This document shows, piece after piece, positions 30,301 through 36,947 of a stretch of DNA of 64,000 bases; position 1 is the stretch's first letter, and every line of letters starts with the position of its first letter. The DNA is from Thermotoga caldifontis AZM44c09 (GTDB lineage Bacteria; Thermotogota; Thermotogae; Thermotogales; DSM-5069), in the NCBI RefSeq assembly GCF_000828655.1, contig NZ_AP014509.1, forward strand, positions 310,001 to 374,000. Reading direction: 5' to 3'. Under the pieces are notes generated by a model, which was not told the DNA's origin, searched no databases, and was given only the letters and a program-made list of their open reading frames with translations. A program made the position numbers and the translations under genes.

Positions 30301-30343
30301 CAGAGGAGTGGCTGAGCCTGGATCAGCGCTGCTCTGGTTTTTC
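30301..30343. terminator. Bidirectional intrinsic terminator
   Basis: CAGAG (30301-30305) pairs with CTCTG (30332-30336). Inside it AG pairs with CT and GCTGA pairs with TCAGC around a 7-base loop, with small internal mismatches. On the plus strand the stem runs into GTTTTTCC, which suits the MFS gene. On the minus strand it runs into TTTTC, which suits the rsmE operon. The stem includes the stop codon of the small unknown gene at 30323. Confidence 0.65.
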
Positions 30344-30709
30344 CTGCAATCTGAACAGATCGGTCCTCTCGGTGTTGGAGAGGAGAGCCTTCCTTCTGTG
30401 CGCGGCGTTGAGAGCCATCCTCTTGAGGATCGCCGGAAGGTCGCTTTTGGTTAGAATTTCCTCACCGATGATCTGTTCCAATTCTTTCGACAGTTTGTAA
30501 CCGTTCTCCGTCTCGGGCTCGAAGCGAACGTGGTCCCAGTGGTTCCTCGTGATCGATGGGTTCACTCTGTTCAAAAGCTTCAGCGCGAATTCAACGAAAA
30601 CATCGCCCGTTTCTTCCGGTCTCTTCACGGCGGACAATCTCTCACGATAAGCACTCTCGAGCTCTTTCTCGAACTTCACGAAGGAAAGGACCTTTTCACC
30701 CTTCTTCAT
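30323..30709 (-). CDS. Conserved-looking hypothetical protein
   Basis: 128 residues, charged and mostly helical, with no family I can name. ATG 30709 is preferred because GAGGAGG lies 7 bases upstream; an ATG two codons earlier overlaps the rsmE stop. Notable stretches are NPSITRNHWDHVRFEPETEN and AHRRKALLSN. Lack of signal or membrane segments suggests a cytosolic protein. It is the last gene of the serS-rsmE operon and its stop lies in the terminator hairpin. Confidence 0.7.
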   Translation of the reverse strand: MKKGEKVLSFVKFEKELESAYRERLSAVKRPEETGDVFVEFALKLLNRVNPSITRNHWDHVRFEPETENGYKLSKELEQIIGEEILTKSDLPAILKRMALNAAHRRKALLSNTERTDLFRLQEKPEQR

Positions 30710-30711
30710 GA

Positions 30712-31395
30712 TCATCCCTCCTCAAGAGGATCGTTGAGAAAATACATCAAACCCATCACGAGCAGGGCCGCGGTCTCAAATCGGAAGATGGTTTCTCCCA
30801 GATTGAACAGCCTGTACTTGGAGCGCAGCGATTCCAGTTCCGATTCGGTGAAATCACCTTCCGGGCCCACGACGATGTTTCTGTACTGGGCCGCCTGTGT
30901 CAACGTCAGAGGCTCGCCGGACTGGTGGAGCACGAACGTCTTCGATGGTTCTACGGGTAGATCCAGATTGTCCAGGACCTGAAGCTCTGGAAATCTACAC
31001 CTTGCGCACTGTTTCGCGGCGTTTCTGATCACGAGTTTTATCTTCTCCACCTTGTCGCTGTAGGATCTACCCCTGCTCGGTTTGTAGACCACGATCCTCG
31101 CTATTCCAACCTCGACCGCTTTTTCAACGAGCCACCTGAGCCTTTCCCAGTGCTGCGATGCCACGCACAGGGTCACTGGCAGTATTTTTTCTCTTCTCTC
31201 TTTAGACTCCATTATTCGCGCGATGGATTCGTTCTTCCCTATCTTCAGAATCTGGCAACGGTACAGCTTACCCTCTCCATCTGTGATGAATACCTCTCGC
31301 TCCTCCCGGATCCTGACGACCTTCAAATGTTGTGTTTCGTGCGCGTCCAGGACGATGAATTCACCGTTCGGTTTTCCGTAGAAGAGGTGGGGCAA
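30712..31395 (-). CDS. rsmE: 16S rRNA m3U1498 methyltransferase RsmE
   Basis: 227 residues. An N-terminal PUA-like domain (MPHLFYGKPNGEF to about 70) is followed by a SPOUT domain whose knot carries VGPEGDFTESELE and LGETIFRFETAAL, the SAM-binding signatures of RsmE. The start is a TTG directly after the serS stop, with GAGGTGA inside the serS end as ribosome-binding site. It methylates U1498 of 16S rRNA in the assembled 30S subunit. Confidence 0.94.
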   Translation of the reverse strand: MPHLFYGKPNGEFIVLDAHETQHLKVVRIREEREVFITDGEGKLYRCQILKIGKNESIARIMESKERREKILPVTLCVASQHWERLRWLVEKAVEVGIARIVVYKPSRGRSYSDKVEKIKLVIRNAAKQCARCRFPELQVLDNLDLPVEPSKTFVLHQSGEPLTLTQAAQYRNIVVGPEGDFTESELESLRSKYRLFNLGETIFRFETAALLVMGLMYFLNDPLEEG

Positions 31396-32670
31396 TCAGG
31401 GGATCACCTCGCAACCTAAGTACGGCTGCAACGCCTTCGGAACGTCTATCCTTCCGTCGGGCCTCTGGTAGTTTTCCACGATCGCCACCAGCGCCCTCCC
31501 GATCGCCACGCCCGAACCGTTCAGTGTGTGGACGTAATCGAGCTTTCCGTCTTTTCTTCTGTATCGGATGTTTCCCCTGCGTGCCTGAAAGTCGGTATCG
31601 TTGCTGCACGAGGAGATCTCTTTGTACGCGTTGTACGAGGGCAACCAGACTTCTATATCGTAGGTCTTCGCCGCGCCGAAACCCATGTCGCCGGTGCACA
31701 GCAGTACCACCCTGTAGGGTAACTCGAGCCTCCTGAGCACTTCCTCCGCATGCCTGACGAGCGTCTCCAGATCTTCGAAGGAACGCTCAGGTGTCGTCAG
31801 CCAGACGAGCTCGACCTTGTCGAACTGGTGCTGTCTTATCATGCCTCGCACGTCCTTACCGTAACTGCCCGCTTCCCTCCTGTAACAGGGTGTGTACGCT
31901 GTGTACAGCAAAGGAAGCTGCTTCTCTTCTAAAATCTCATCGGCCCTGAGGGCGACCAGGGGTACCTCCGCCGTTGGTATCAGGAACAGGTCGTCCGAAT
32001 CTATCCTGTACGCCTCTTCTTCGAACTTCGGTAGCTGGCCCGTGATCGTCATCGTGCTCCGCTTGACGAGGTGTGGCACCCAGACTTCGGTGTAGCCGTG
32101 TTCTTTGGTGTGGAGATCGAGCATGAAGTTTATGAGTGCGCGCTCGAGCCTTGCGAATGCGGAGTACATCACGGTGAACCTCGAACCGGAGAGTTTGGCA
32201 GCCCTGTCGAAGTCCATCAGGCCCAGCTGGGGTCCCAGGTCCCAGTGTGCTTTGGGTTCGAAGTCGAACTTCCTCGGTTCTCCCCACCTTCTGACCTCGA
32301 TGTTGTGCGTCTCGTCCGGCCCGATCGGTACGGATTCGTGCGGGATGTTCGGCACGTAGAGCATCAGTCTGTTCAGCTTCTCTTTCACTTCGTCGAGTTC
32401 TTTCTCGATCGCGTCGATGCGTTCACCTATCTTTTTTCCTTCTTCCATAAGCTGGTTCGCTTCCTGCTCATCGCCGCGGGCTTTGGCCTGGGCGACGCGT
32501 TTTGAGATGCTGTTCCTCTGAGCCCTCAGCTGGTTCACCTCGTTCGTGAGCGACCTCACCCTCGTATCCAGCGAGACGATCTCATCAACGATGGAAGGAT
32601 CGTAGTTTCTGTTCTTCAGGGCGGTCCTCACCTTTTCAGCGTTTTCCCTAAACATGCGTATGTCCAGCAA
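31396..32670 (-). CDS. serS: Seryl-tRNA synthetase
   Basis: 424 residues, the bacterial length. The N-terminal antiparallel coiled-coil arm (about 1-105) grips the long variable arm of tRNA-Ser. The class II core has motif 2 ([14 protein letters not shown]) and motif 3 ([17 protein letters not shown]), with TAEVPL for serine binding. The start is TTG with GGAGGAGTGATG upstream. It follows the LptA-like gene by a few bases, so translation and envelope genes share a transcript. Confidence 0.97.
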
Positions 32671-32676
32671 GTTTCA

Positions 32677-33297
32677 TCACTCCTCCACAACGAGTTCAAC
32701 CCTGGCGTTCGTCGCGCTCATCTCATCGCCAGCGGTTTTGATCTCGACAGCGTCGGCCCACATTTTCAGATTCTTCTCGTGGTCCACAAGGACCACCGAA
32801 CCCGTCAGCCTGATCAATCCGGAGTTTCTATCGTAAAACAGGGCGTTCGCGGATGCTTCGATCTTCCCTTTCACGACGCGAACTGGTGTGTCCGTCTGAA
32901 AAACGTTTTTGTCCAGATCGATCGACAATCTCTCGGTGTTGAGAAGGACGACGTCGGAGCTTCCTTTGTCGATTATCTTCGCCTGAACGTTGCCCACCAG
33001 CATACCCGTTTTGGTCTTCAGATCGTACTTCAAGTTCGTCGCCGTTGCCTCGCCGTTCTCGAATTCCACGAACGTTGAGGTCGCGTCGATCAACCTCCAT
33101 TCGTTCAGCAGCTTCGTCACGAGCATGGATTGACAAAGAAGCTTCAGCTTGTCTTCCTCGACCTCAACCCTCACGTTTCCTTCGTAATAGGCTCTCTCCT
33201 TTTCGGGTTTGACGTAATTAGAAACGATGTGTACGGTTTTGGCGAACGTCGGGACCAGAAGGGTTAGCAACAAAACGATCGAGAGCGTTTTTCTCAC
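32677..33297 (-). CDS. LptA/OstA-like exported protein
   Basis: 206 residues. A signal peptide (RKTLSIVLLLTLLVPTFA) is followed by repeated short beta strands in the pattern of the OstA/LptA jellyroll: AYYEGNVRVEVEEDKL, NLKYDLKTKTGMLVGNVQA, ALFYDRNSGLIRLTGSVVLV. LptA family proteins bridge lipopolysaccharide across the periplasm. Thermotogae do not make ordinary LPS, so a different lipid or a structural role in the toga is likely. GTG start with GGAAGGTGA upstream. It lies between the Omp-alpha-like gene and serS. Confidence 0.8.
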   Translation of the reverse strand: MRKTLSIVLLLTLLVPTFAKTVHIVSNYVKPEKERAYYEGNVRVEVEEDKLKLLCQSMLVTKLLNEWRLIDATSTFVEFENGEATATNLKYDLKTKTGMLVGNVQAKIIDKGSSDVVLLNTERLSIDLDKNVFQTDTPVRVVKGKIEASANALFYDRNSGLIRLTGSVVLVDHEKNLKMWADAVEIKTAGDEMSATNARVELVVEE

Positions 33298-33303
33298 GAA
33301 GCT

Positions 33304-34449
33304 TCACCTTCCCATAGAGAATATGAGTGCTATCAGTCCGATCGCGACACCCGCCGCCCCAACGATGTAGGCCGTGTTCAGGTTGGACTGGAGGGTTTTG
33401 TTCTTCAGCTCGAGTTCGTCGATCCTGCTCTTCAGCCTCGAAAGGTCCAGAGACGCGAGGTTTTCTTCGAGGACTTTCAAATCCTGCTCGAGCTTCGAAG
33501 CCCTCTCGACCAGACCCTGGATCTGGTTTCTGAGTTCCTCCACCTGCTGTTTCGAGGCGAAGTTCTCCAGCGCGATCAGTCTGTTCTGGAGATCTTGGAT
33601 CTGCTGTCTCAATCTGTTGACCTCCTCGGCTCTGTCCGTGAGCTCCTTTTTCTGCAGGGCGAGTTCGTTCTGCAGGCTCTTCAACGTTACGCTGAGCTTG
33701 CTCTCGGAGGCGGATATCTTCTGATCGACGAGGCTCGAAAAGGCGTTGAATTCGTTCCTCGTGGAATCTTTGAAACTCGTCAACTCTGCGAACGTCTGAT
33801 CCAGCCTTTTCGAAAGCGCATCGACGGAGGACTTCAGCGTGGAAAGCTGCTGGGATAGGCTCGAAATCTGGTCATTGATCTTAGTTTGCTCGCTCGAAAG
33901 TTTTTCCAGATCGTTCTGCTGCGCCTGAACCTGTTTGAACAGGTCTGAACTGAGTTTCTCTACGGAGTTCACCCTTTCAACCAGTGCGTCTATCCTGGCG
34001 AGTTGAGCTTCCTGGGCTTTGATGTAATCCACGATTTGCTTCTGCACCTGTGCGAAGAGTTCCTGAGAGAGCCTGTCGAGCTGGCTTTGAATGTTCACCG
34101 TGGCCGTTTCGAGCTCTCTCAATCTCTGGTCGTAGGTCTTGTAGGCTGATTCGATACCCAGCATCTTCGCGGAGACCTCTTTCTGAGACTCTGCGAGCGC
34201 TGAAAGTCTTTTGGAAAGCTCGTCCAGCTGGAAGTTCTTGATCGTTCTGTATATGTACTGTGCGATGTCGAACCTGGTGGTCAACAGGCCTCCTCTGAAG
34301 TTTCCGTTCTCGTCCAGTTCCATGATTCTGTTTTCGATCACGAACGACACGGGAACGTAGATGTCCAGAACGGGAGAAACATCCTTGATGTTCAGCTGGG
34401 CGAACAGAGAGCAACCGATCAATGCGAACAGAACGACCATCTTCCTCAC
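33304..34449 (-). CDS. Omp-alpha-like toga rod protein
   Basis: 381 residues. GTG 34449 is chosen because GGGAGGTGA lies 5 bases upstream and the signal peptide (MVVLFALIGCSLFAQ) follows directly. The mature protein has an SLH-like N-terminal module (about 18-70, with NGNFRGGLLTTRFDIAQYI) and a ~270-residue coiled-coil rod. One C-terminal membrane helix (TAYIVGAAGVAIGLIALIF) is followed by MGR. This matches Omp-alpha of T. maritima, which spans the periplasm and links the cell wall to the toga. Its ribosome-binding site lies over the end of the PEGA gene. Confidence 0.82.
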   Translation of the reverse strand: MRKMVVLFALIGCSLFAQLNIKDVSPVLDIYVPVSFVIENRIMELDENGNFRGGLLTTRFDIAQYIYRTIKNFQLDELSKRLSALAESQKEVSAKMLGIESAYKTYDQRLRELETATVNIQSQLDRLSQELFAQVQKQIVDYIKAQEAQLARIDALVERVNSVEKLSSDLFKQVQAQQNDLEKLSSEQTKINDQISSLSQQLSTLKSSVDALSKRLDQTFAELTSFKDSTRNEFNAFSSLVDQKISASESKLSVTLKSLQNELALQKKELTDRAEEVNRLRQQIQDLQNRLIALENFASKQQVEELRNQIQGLVERASKLEQDLKVLEENLASLDLSRLKSRIDELELKNKTLQSNLNTAYIVGAAGVAIGLIALIFSMGR

Positions 34450-34450
34450 T

Positions 34451-35860
34451 TCAATCACCTCCCACCGTGACGTTGATCGTTTTCCCTGGCTCAACGATCA
34501 CTTCCTTTTCCCAGCCGACGGTGCTCACTTTCACAACAGAAGGTTTCACTGGATAGAATAACACAGGTGAAAGACCTGCAAATTCTGAATTCACATAGCA
34601 TTCGACGACGCTGTCGCTGAAGATGCAGAGATAACCGAGATCTTCCGGGGAGAACGTGTACAGTTTGCCGGCGGAGAATTCGACCGTTCTCTCTCTTGCT
34701 TCGACCTTCACCGTGTGGAAACCTTCAGGCAGGTAGATCAAAGATGGCGGTCTGTAAGTTATGCCCTCGACAGTGTAGACGGTGCTTCTGTCGCCCAGAA
34801 GGAGGACGGTCGCCACATCGAACCTCACTTCGATTCGTTCGTCCCTTGAAAGGTCTACCAGACCCATCCACCTTTTCTCACCGAGCCTCGCCTCGATCAG
34901 ATGGATCGACTGCGGCAGTTTCACGCTGGTCGGTCCGCGTCCAGCGCTCTTTCCGTCCACGAAGATCAAAGCCTCTTCTGGCGCAACGACATCGAGCCGA
35001 AAGAGTTTCGGTTCGAGTGGTACGTAAAGGTAGTTCTGTCCCTGCTTGAGTTCGACCGTGATCGATCTCTCTTCGTAACCTACAGCCTTGACGAGGATCG
35101 TCCTCTCACCGAGCGGAAGATCGGTGAAAACCGTGTTCTGAGGCTGCACTCGATCGTCTATCTGAACGATCGCGTGCGAGACGCTGGATTGAACGAGCAA
35201 TCTGGCGCTCGGTGTGAGAGTGAATTCGAACTGTTGAGTTTCGTCGTCGGAAACTCTGATGTTCTGCACCAGGGAAAAGTGGTCCGGCGCCTGTAGTTTT
35301 ATCTGGTAATCTCCGGCGGGCAGTTTCAAACTCTTCGGAGTTTCACCGACGAACTGGTTCTGGATCCACAGCTTCGCGGCGGGCTTCGAAACGATCTGGA
35401 CCGTTGGGGTGTTCGACAGTTCAACCCGCAATTTTTTCTTCTCGTGGGCTTGAAGCGATACGGACCTTTTCGTTCTGCAGAAACCTTCTTTCTGGAGCGT
35501 TATCTCGTAGTTTCCAGGTTCGAGTTCCATTTCGAGAGGCGTTCGACCCACCAGAACTTTGTTGATCCAGACGGACGCGCCGTCCGGCACACTCTCGATC
35601 AGCAAGTTCGCAGAAGCCTGCAGCTGGACGAAGTAAGTCTTTTCTGGATCGCTCAAAAAGATAGACTTGGTCAGATAACCTGGTTTCACGAGCGTCAGCG
35701 TCGCTGGCAGGCTCACCTCGAACTGCGCGACGCCGTTTCTGTCCGTCACGGCGAGCAGGACAGAGCCCAGCCTCACTTCGACGTTCGGGACGTTCGTCAC
35801 CAGCGTGACGGCGATGCAGAGTTGAGAAACCAGCAACAGCACCATCAAGAGCTTCTGCAT
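34451..35860 (-). CDS. Exported PEGA-domain repeat protein
   Basis: 469 residues. A signal peptide (QKLLMVLLLVSQLCIA) precedes a chain of small beta domains of the PEGA type: VWINKVLVGRTPLEMELEPG, LWIQNQFVGETPKSLKLPAG, IFVDGKSAGRGPTSVKLP, and a C-terminal YVNSEFAGLSPVLFYP. PEGA domains are found in surface and envelope proteins. The Gly-x-Pro/Ser turn after a short hairpin is seen in each copy. The gene overlaps marR by 16 bp and the next gene by its ribosome-binding site, so this is one transcription unit with the Omp-alpha-like and LptA-like genes. Confidence 0.82.
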   Translation of the reverse strand: MQKLLMVLLLVSQLCIAVTLVTNVPNVEVRLGSVLLAVTDRNGVAQFEVSLPATLTLVKPGYLTKSIFLSDPEKTYFVQLQASANLLIESVPDGASVWINKVLVGRTPLEMELEPGNYEITLQKEGFCRTKRSVSLQAHEKKKLRVELSNTPTVQIVSKPAAKLWIQNQFVGETPKSLKLPAGDYQIKLQAPDHFSLVQNIRVSDDETQQFEFTLTPSARLLVQSSVSHAIVQIDDRVQPQNTVFTDLPLGERTILVKAVGYEERSITVELKQGQNYLYVPLEPKLFRLDVVAPEEALIFVDGKSAGRGPTSVKLPQSIHLIEARLGEKRWMGLVDLSRDERIEVRFDVATVLLLGDRSTVYTVEGITYRPPSLIYLPEGFHTVKVEARERTVEFSAGKLYTFSPEDLGYLCIFSDSVVECYVNSEFAGLSPVLFYPVKPSVVKVSTVGWEKEVIVEPGKTINVTVGGD

Positions 35861-36270
35861 TTTTCCATCTCTTTCCTCAAGACTTCGAGCAATCTCAGGA
35901 GTTCTTTCGAGCGTTCTTCCCCGATCCTTTCCAGAACCCTACCTATGAATTCCACCCGTCTTTCTATCACGTTCTCGATGATCCTTCGTCCTTCGTCCGT
36001 GACGGACAGCATGTACACTCTTTTGTCCGCTCCACGCCTTCTTTCGACATATCCAGCGTTCTCGAGCCTTTTTACGATTCCACTCAGCGTGCTCTTGGCT
36101 ATGCCAAGGGACTGGCTCAGATCGACCATCTTCACAGGTCCTCTGAAGTAAAGTCTCTGCAACAGGTCGAACTGGGCGCTCGTGATGGAATATTCCTTCA
36201 GCACGAGCCTTCCCTCGACCTTCACGATGAAACAGATCTCCCTGAGGAGCTTTTCGATTTCCTTCTTCAA
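35845..36270 (-). CDS. MarR family transcriptional regulator
   Basis: 141 residues with the MarR winged helix: ITSAQFDLLQRLYFRGPVKM, LSQSLGIAKSTLSGIVKRLE and the wing YVERRRGADKRVYMLSVTDEG. Dimerisation helices flank it. The start is TTG with GGAGGGAGGAAG upstream. It lies directly before, and overlaps, the PEGA gene, so it may regulate the envelope genes that follow, or its own operon. No ligand can be named. Confidence 0.92.
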   Translation of the reverse strand: MKKEIEKLLREICFIVKVEGRLVLKEYSITSAQFDLLQRLYFRGPVKMVDLSQSLGIAKSTLSGIVKRLENAGYVERRRGADKRVYMLSVTDEGRRIIENVIERRVEFIGRVLERIGEERSKELLRLLEVLRKEMEKCRSS

Positions 36271-36947
36271 GCTTCCTCCCTCCCCTTGAGGTTCAGAGCC
36301 ACGGTGATCTCGCCTTTCACATCTTTAAAAATCTCCAGTGCCTCGCTGACCTTTCCCCTGTACAGTTGCTGAAACATCTTCGTCATCTCCCGGGCGATGA
36401 AGATCTCGCAGTCTCCAAAGATTTCCAGTATGTCCTTCAGCGTTGCCTGCATCCTGATCGCCGCCTCGAAGAAGATGAGAACGAGTTTTTTTCCCTTCAA
36501 TTCTCTCAAGAGTTTTCTCCTCTTCTTGCCGCGCGGCAGGAAACCCACGAACATGACGCGTGAGGTGTCGAAACCGCACAGCGCCATCGCACTCGTCAGG
36601 GCGCTGGGACCCGGCATGACGTCGAGCTCGATACCCTTCCTCCAGCACGCATCGACCAGGTAACCTCCAGGATCGGCGACACCCGGCATCCCTGAATCGG
36701 TGACCAGGCACACTTTCTTCCCCTCGCTGAGGAGCTTCAGGATCATCGGTATGCTCTTGGTCTGGTTGTGAACGCCGTAGGAAAGAAGCTGTTTGTTCTC
36801 GATCCTGTAGAACTTGAGCAACTTCAACGTCCTTCTGGTGTCCTCGGCGAGGATGACGTCCGCTTCTCGCAGCGCCTTGATGGCCCTTATCGTCATGTCG
36901 AGCATGTTGCCGATGGGAGTACCGACGATCGTCAATTTACCGGGCAA
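36267..36947 (-). CDS. rsmI: 16S rRNA (cytidine-1402-2'-O)-methyltransferase RsmI
   Basis: 226 residues, somewhat shorter than E. coli RsmI. The tetrapyrrole-methylase fold shows VGTPIGNMLDMTIRAIKAL, AEDTRRT, the SAM loop VTDSGMPGVADPG and MPGPSALTSAMALCG. The usual SDAGTPG reads SDSGMPG here. It 2'-O-methylates C1402 in the decoding centre. TTG start with AGGAGG upstream, inside the end of the ligase gene. It is the second of two rRNA methyltransferase genes in this run, with rsmG. Confidence 0.94.
   Translation of the reverse strand: MPGKLTIVGTPIGNMLDMTIRAIKALREADVILAEDTRRTLKLLKFYRIENKQLLSYGVHNQTKSIPMILKLLSEGKKVCLVTDSGMPGVADPGGYLVDACWRKGIELDVMPGPSALTSAMALCGFDTSRVMFVGFLPRGKKRRKLLRELKGKKLVLIFFEAAIRMQATLKDILEIFGDCEIFIAREMTKMFQQLYRGKVSEALEIFKDVKGEITVALNLKGREEA

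Follow-up and report, generated by a model that had tools for sequence, protein, structure and literature searches.

The window considered here, a 64,000-nucleotide stretch of Thermotoga caldifontis AZM44c09 (contig NZ_AP014509.1, positions 310,001 to 374,000), carries four consecutive genes for a MarR-family regulator, a secreted PEGA-domain protein, a third paralogue of the Omp-alpha rod (OmpA3) and a homologue of LptA, the periplasmic bridge protein of the Lpt pathway (Table 1). A sequence-only reading had described them as four overlapping genes forming a MarR-controlled unit for building or loading the toga, in a phylum without ordinary lipopolysaccharide (LPS). We consider it fairly probable (about 0.6) that the cluster combines a toga-envelope pair, PEGA and OmpA3, with LptA as the bridge of an LPS-independent Lpt pathway, whose other members are LptB and a protein in which LptF/G is fused to LptD. 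All four open reading frames are real and the identities first given to them hold, but true overlap is limited to the MarR and PEGA genes (16 nt), the PEGA-OmpA3 and OmpA3-LptA gaps being 1 and 6 nt.

The LptA homologue and the OmpA3 rod

The lptA-like gene encodes a protein with an OstA/LptA beta-jellyroll domain, seen both in Pfam and in profile matches to the PDB. The matches to PF06835 (36.6 bits), PF03968 (34.6 bits) and the LptC model TIGR04409 all exceed their cut-offs, and a profile of the family matches LptA in the PDB at 1e-4; the profile was needed, as the single sequence yields no PDB match with phmmer. Foldseek retrieves LptA (2r19) at 1.6e-5, although this comparison, made with a weak single-sequence model (mean predicted local distance difference test score, pLDDT, of 56), is used as support only. 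By inspection, the N-terminus is hydrophobic and ends in LLVPTFA/K. In the genomes searched PF03968 has no matches besides the LptA homologue and the fusion, and LptA is the only small OstA-type protein found per genome. No separate LptC was found, PF06835 matching only the LptA of the cluster. The LptA-like protein of the sequence-only reading is therefore a real homologue, encoded with an Omp-alpha-family rod and a PEGA protein. In some lineages LptA-like proteins of 330–346 and about 603 amino acids have two or three LptA domains in tandem (L109:4956-5969, L130:5321-6313 and L136:6294-8105), which looks like a longer form of the bridge.

Conservation was assessed in 61 Thermotogota genomes (that of the window and 60 relatives) by joining search matches by position. 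LpxC was found in none of the 61, in a search with four positive controls, hence lipid A is not the cargo by the known route, and LptA is a bridge of the Lpt type without a role in LPS transport. This bears out the absence of ordinary LPS from the phylum and agrees with the loss of LPS inferred for the Thermotogae in PMC5007114.

The Omp-alpha family was described earlier from OmpA1 (TM0477; secG-tyrS-ompA-ompB) and OmpA2 (TM1729) (Petrus et al., PMC3387000). The genome of the window has both elsewhere, OmpA1 beside secG/tyrS (L206) and OmpA2 at L135. In a tree of 35 Omp-alpha proteins, whose main caveat is the error-prone alignment of coiled coils, OmpA3 and 14 orthologues form one clade (support 100/99) separate from those of OmpA1 and OmpA2. 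The tree and the neighbouring genes (the tyrS and ruvB loci lie elsewhere) rule out that the rod in the window is either of the two.

OmpA3 is homologous to OmpA1 and OmpA2 and resembles them in its long coiled coil, in the hydrophobic helix at its C-terminus and, more weakly, in an SLH-like N-terminus (PMC3387000). It differs in its clade, in its neighbours (PEGA and LptA instead of tyrS/ompB or ruvB) and in its degenerate SLH domain, which scores 15.1 bits in the window, below the cut-off of 20.8, and 24.8–28.4 bits, weakly above it, in orthologues, compared to 46–49 bits in OmpA1/OmpA2. The helical period of the window protein (3.56) is inside the range of its own shuffles, and that of the ortholog in G023 (3.52) is far above its shuffles. 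We take G023 to be T. neapolitana and G021 to be T. maritima; the match of the MarR protein to Tm0710 supports these names. The description of the gene as the rod linking wall to toga is correct as to the family, whereas that role was characterised for OmpA1, from which the window gene differs as a paralogue of its own whose SLH domain is degenerate. OmpA3 of the distant family f9 (families are labelled f1 to f11) has 690–768 amino acids, about twice the usual rod length (L102:7385-9457, L103:5924-8230). Two further Omp-alpha paralogues of T. maritima are mentioned in PMC9388160, thus a third copy had already been counted; no description of the OmpA3 neighbourhood was found in the literature.

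Two observations concern the other Omp-alpha loci of the same genome. A second PEGA gene (L135:7187-9007, 606 amino acids) lies convergently beside ompA2, and a 303-amino-acid protein ending in F (L206:3340-4251) is encoded downstream of ompA1, possibly an analogue of the OmpB described for T. lettingae.

The fused permease and translocon

LptB exceeds the equivalog cut-off in 56 genomes and LptF/G (PF03739) is present in 60, nearly always within a frame of about 1100 amino acids. In the genome of the window this gene is L141:3431-6742 (G000:C1, near 1.67 Mb; PF03739 2.6e-79), outside the window. Frames of at least 900 amino acids, where LptF/G continues into an LptD-like half, occur in about 54 of these 60 genomes; the shorter exceptions are mostly due to contig ends or a stop codon, and L185 is a split version. 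Two LptF/G genes lie side by side, unfused, in G051 (L149:5410-7743), where no fusion was found. The same fusion is present in Candidatus Bipolaricaulota/Acetothermia (L190, L191, L193, L194, L197–L199 and L203). The possibility that the LptA-like protein is an orphan is ruled out by the genome-wide presence of LptF/G, the LptD-like half and LptB.

In the C-terminal 720 residues of the fusion TTC is invariant, and a PHY signature after it nearly so; the chain ends in a beta-rich part. A profile of 15 fusion sequences matches LptD in the PDB (8h1r, 5e-7, residues 390–588; 5iv9, 2.7e-6, residues 389–818), and its N-terminal half matches LptG and LptF (LptG, 1e-5). The structure was predicted with AlphaFold2 from an alignment of 33 sequences for the protein of a relative in Pseudothermotoga (L159); in the best segment this protein is 54% identical to that of the window's genome. 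The model (mean pLDDT 82) has helices and a jellyroll at 1–356, a helix at 360–379, a low-confidence linker, a second jellyroll at about 390–556 and a many-stranded barrel reaching the C-terminus. The best Foldseek matches of the model are structures of LptD (5.4e-23), followed by LptG (8.3e-15), and VIA-align gives Z scores of 27 to LptG (residues 3–358) and 17–21 to LptD (about 385–1090). Hence, by profile and predicted fold, the second half has the organization of LptD, an N-terminal jellyroll and a large C-terminal beta barrel.

Three known systems resemble this set. Borrelia burgdorferi (BB0464-0466, BB0807/0808, BB0838) likewise has Lpt components in a diderm without LPS, and its LptD homologue, with an N-terminal jellyroll and an enlarged barrel, is similar to the fusion half (PMC10353723). 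However, its lptF, lptG, lptC and lptD are separate, whereas the Thermotogota have one LptF/G fused to LptD, no separate LptC found, and LptA encoded with an Omp-alpha rod. The folds of LptA, LptB, LptF/G and LptD are shared with the LptB2FGC-A-DE system of E. coli, which differs from the Thermotogota in that the latter lack LpxC, have a single LptF/G gene, no separately detected LptC and a permease-translocon fusion. The Lpt cluster of the Negativicutes and Halanaerobiales also combines a single LptF/G homologue with OstA proteins of about 200 amino acids (PMC5007114), but these lineages make LPS, and no clear LptD is reported from their cluster.

According to a genomic survey (PMC8871954), the Thermotogae lack nearly all outer-membrane genes surveyed except bamA, lptB being found nearly everywhere. 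The present searches contradict the survey for lptA, lptF/G and lptD. No description of the T. maritima locus or of the fusion was found in the literature covered, mostly open-access papers.

Gene order in the window and across the Thermotogota

Table 1. Genes of the cluster and their immediate neighbours in the window
Feature	Coordinates	Strand	Evidence
MarR-family regulator, orthologue of T. maritima Tm0710	35845..36270	minus	Pfam MarR 5.3e-13; PDB 2a61 (Tm0710) 2.2e-39
PEGA-domain secreted protein, N-terminal hydrophobic signal-like segment	34451..35860	minus	PF08308 1.6e-38, 130.8 bits, 3 stretches
OmpA3, third Omp-alpha paralogue	33304..34449	minus	Signal-like N-terminus, degenerate SLH, coiled coil, C-terminal hydrophobic helix
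LptA homologue (periplasmic bridge protein), signal-like N-terminus	32677..33297	minus	LptC PF06835 4.7e-9; LptD_N PF03968 2.5e-8
RsmI-type methyltransferase (context)	36267..36947	minus	PF00590 3.9e-33; 4 nt overlap with the MarR gene
serS (context)	31396..32670	minus	Begins 6 nt past the LptA gene

The four genes are the middle part of a longer co-directional housekeeping run, rsmG, lplA, rsmI, marR, the PEGA gene, the OmpA3 gene, the lptA-like gene, serS and rsmE, with gaps from −16 to +10 nt. The likely start of OmpA3 is a GTG, one base past the PEGA stop codon. The winged helix of the MarR family is confirmed in the regulator by the Pfam and PDB matches. However, no minus-strand promoter match was found within the run, therefore control by MarR is a guess, and a comparison of nine loci yielded no shared operator palindrome upstream of the MarR gene. 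Given this and the location inside a housekeeping run, the MarR control proposed for the cluster is unproven. Past rsmE lies a small open reading frame (30323-30715) with no Pfam match over the cut-off; it again adjoins rsmE in other families.

The counts that follow are plain counts and not unbiased rates, since the PEGA and patatin matches entered are those picked at such loci. MarR orthologues, 38–94% identical across the class, occur in 49 genomes, and in 42 of these MarR is directly upstream of PEGA or OmpA3. PEGA and OmpA3 adjoin in 42 of the 43 genomes with a PEGA match at such a place, and LptA is contiguous with OmpA3 in 31 of 56, directly in 11 and via a patatin gene in 20. This exceeds what is expected by chance. 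Only the family of the window has the uninterrupted four-gene order, in 10 of its 11 genomes; the remaining one is a fragmentary assembly. The order MarR-PEGA-OmpA3-patatin-LptA is found in family f3 (nine genomes) and in f9 (two genomes), and seven Thermotoga genomes of f2 have MarR-OmpA3-patatin-LptA, without PEGA. Hence the expectation of a conserved order is borne out across several families with variation, but in the exact, insertion-free form only in one.

The presence of the arrangement with patatin in the distant f9 suggests that it is ancestral. The active patatin (Pfam 1e-33) retains GxSxG and DGG. In many relatives a second patatin-like protein lies between it and LptA; this protein is degenerate, most copies having no DGG aspartate and no last glycine of the nucleophile motif. 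The genus of the window has neither at this locus, its single patatin match being elsewhere in the genome, and has thus lost the pair from the locus.

In genomes of the Thermosipho type only a few genes separate the fusion gene from MarR-(PEGA)-OmpA3, and in Thermotoga the same holds for its distance to ompA2. We treat this proximity to envelope genes as a second hint of linkage.

Proposed conveyor and alternative explanations

As LptB, LptF/G and LptD are present genome-wide, a route to the toga is plausible, and so is the cluster as a toga-building unit. In the proposed mechanism LptB would power the permease half of the fusion. Signal peptidase would probably free the LptD barrel at the signal-peptide-like segment, and the barrel would insert in the outer membrane. 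LptA would take an amphiphile from LptF/G and hand it to LptD for insertion into the toga membrane, on the side of the outer leaflet. The patatin-like phospholipase and its degenerate partner, where present, may trim or prepare a lipid cargo. The link between rod and conveyor, if OmpA3 and PEGA take part in the same process, may be mechanical, the membranes being held at a bridgeable distance, or regulatory.

Several observations weigh against this interpretation. LptA adjoins serS and rsmE in f1, f6, f8, f9 and f11, therefore its neighbours need not share its function and adjacency alone is a weak argument. The MarR, PEGA-OmpA3 and LptA blocks are apart in f4, f5 and f6, and in several families LptA is on another contig or at another site than PEGA-OmpA3. 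The length of OmpA3 varies twofold, which is odd for a fixed spacer. The predicted TM-score (pTM) of the fusion model is 0.45, and the relative placement of the domains is not given by the model. Finally, the LptD barrel model PF04453 matches none of the 61 genomes, but it also matches only two of 14 controls and misses an LpxC-bearing Bacteroides control; for LptD it was replaced by the profile and fold comparisons.

The cargo may be a surface lipoprotein, as in Borrelia, or a glycolipid. It is possible, though not our preferred choice, that LptA-LptD carries no lipid and instead flips lipoproteins of the toga, the part played by BB0838 in Borrelia, which has the Lpt set without LPS (PMC10353723). 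The Borrelia LptD homologue is required for surface lipoproteins (PMC13317210), and hydrolases of the toga, AmyA among them, are associated with the surface (PMC3387000). On the other hand, an acyl lipid is suggested by the patatin-like lipases that many relatives encode next to LptA.

The cluster could also be a neighbourhood without shared function, where LptA serves the Lpt pathway and PEGA-OmpA3 is a separate wall-anchoring pair, both caught in a housekeeping run (rsmI to serS) that is old and strongly expressed. The serS adjacency and the separated blocks listed above fit this explanation, as do the gaps of 0–10 nt throughout the run. We consider it unlikely, as the core stays together although serS is gone from both f2 and f3 and although f3 has different genes on either side (a miaA-type gene on the downstream side); moreover, ompA2 or OmpA3 recurs near the fusion gene in Thermotoga and Thermosipho-type genomes.

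The cleavage step of the conveyor was suggested by features of the fusion. A hydrophobic segment follows the last permease helix in all 33 fusions, usually with positive charges before it, and small residues as at signal peptidase I (SPase-I) sites follow in 30 of 33 (e.g. AWA/QE in Bipolaricaulota), a count that is only suggestive, as the rule was permissive. An hhalign comparison pairs the signal peptide and jellyroll of LptA with the hydrophobic segment and the first jellyroll of LptD (96.8% probability, E 2e-10). Together these features point to a putative internal signal peptide, with the barrel released by cleavage. An uncut chain anchored in both membranes and working where they touch would hold permease and translocon paired, and the frame is continuous in most of one phylum and in a second, but it is improbable, given the SPase-I-like sites, the split version L185, and a linker and jellyroll far below the approximately 50 nm spacing attributed to the Omp-alpha rods (PMC3387000).

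For the two phyla together we put forward a wider claim only tentatively, at slightly less than even odds: that Thermotogota and Ca. Bipolaricaulota share a non-LPS Lpt conveyor whose permease and translocon are made as one polyprotein cut by signal peptidase, LptA being co-encoded in the Thermotogota with OmpA3, PEGA and, ancestrally, the phospholipase pair.

The question addressed by these observations is how the toga is constructed and whether an LPS-type outer membrane was its ancestor. The presence of LptB, LptF/G, LptD and LptA in almost all Thermotogota without LpxC suggests the toga to be a genuine outer membrane that, lipid A having been lost, is supplied with another cargo by an Lpt bridge. 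The Lpt set supplies named genes for work on the toga, and the fusion, found in two phyla, fixes the pairing of permease and translocon.

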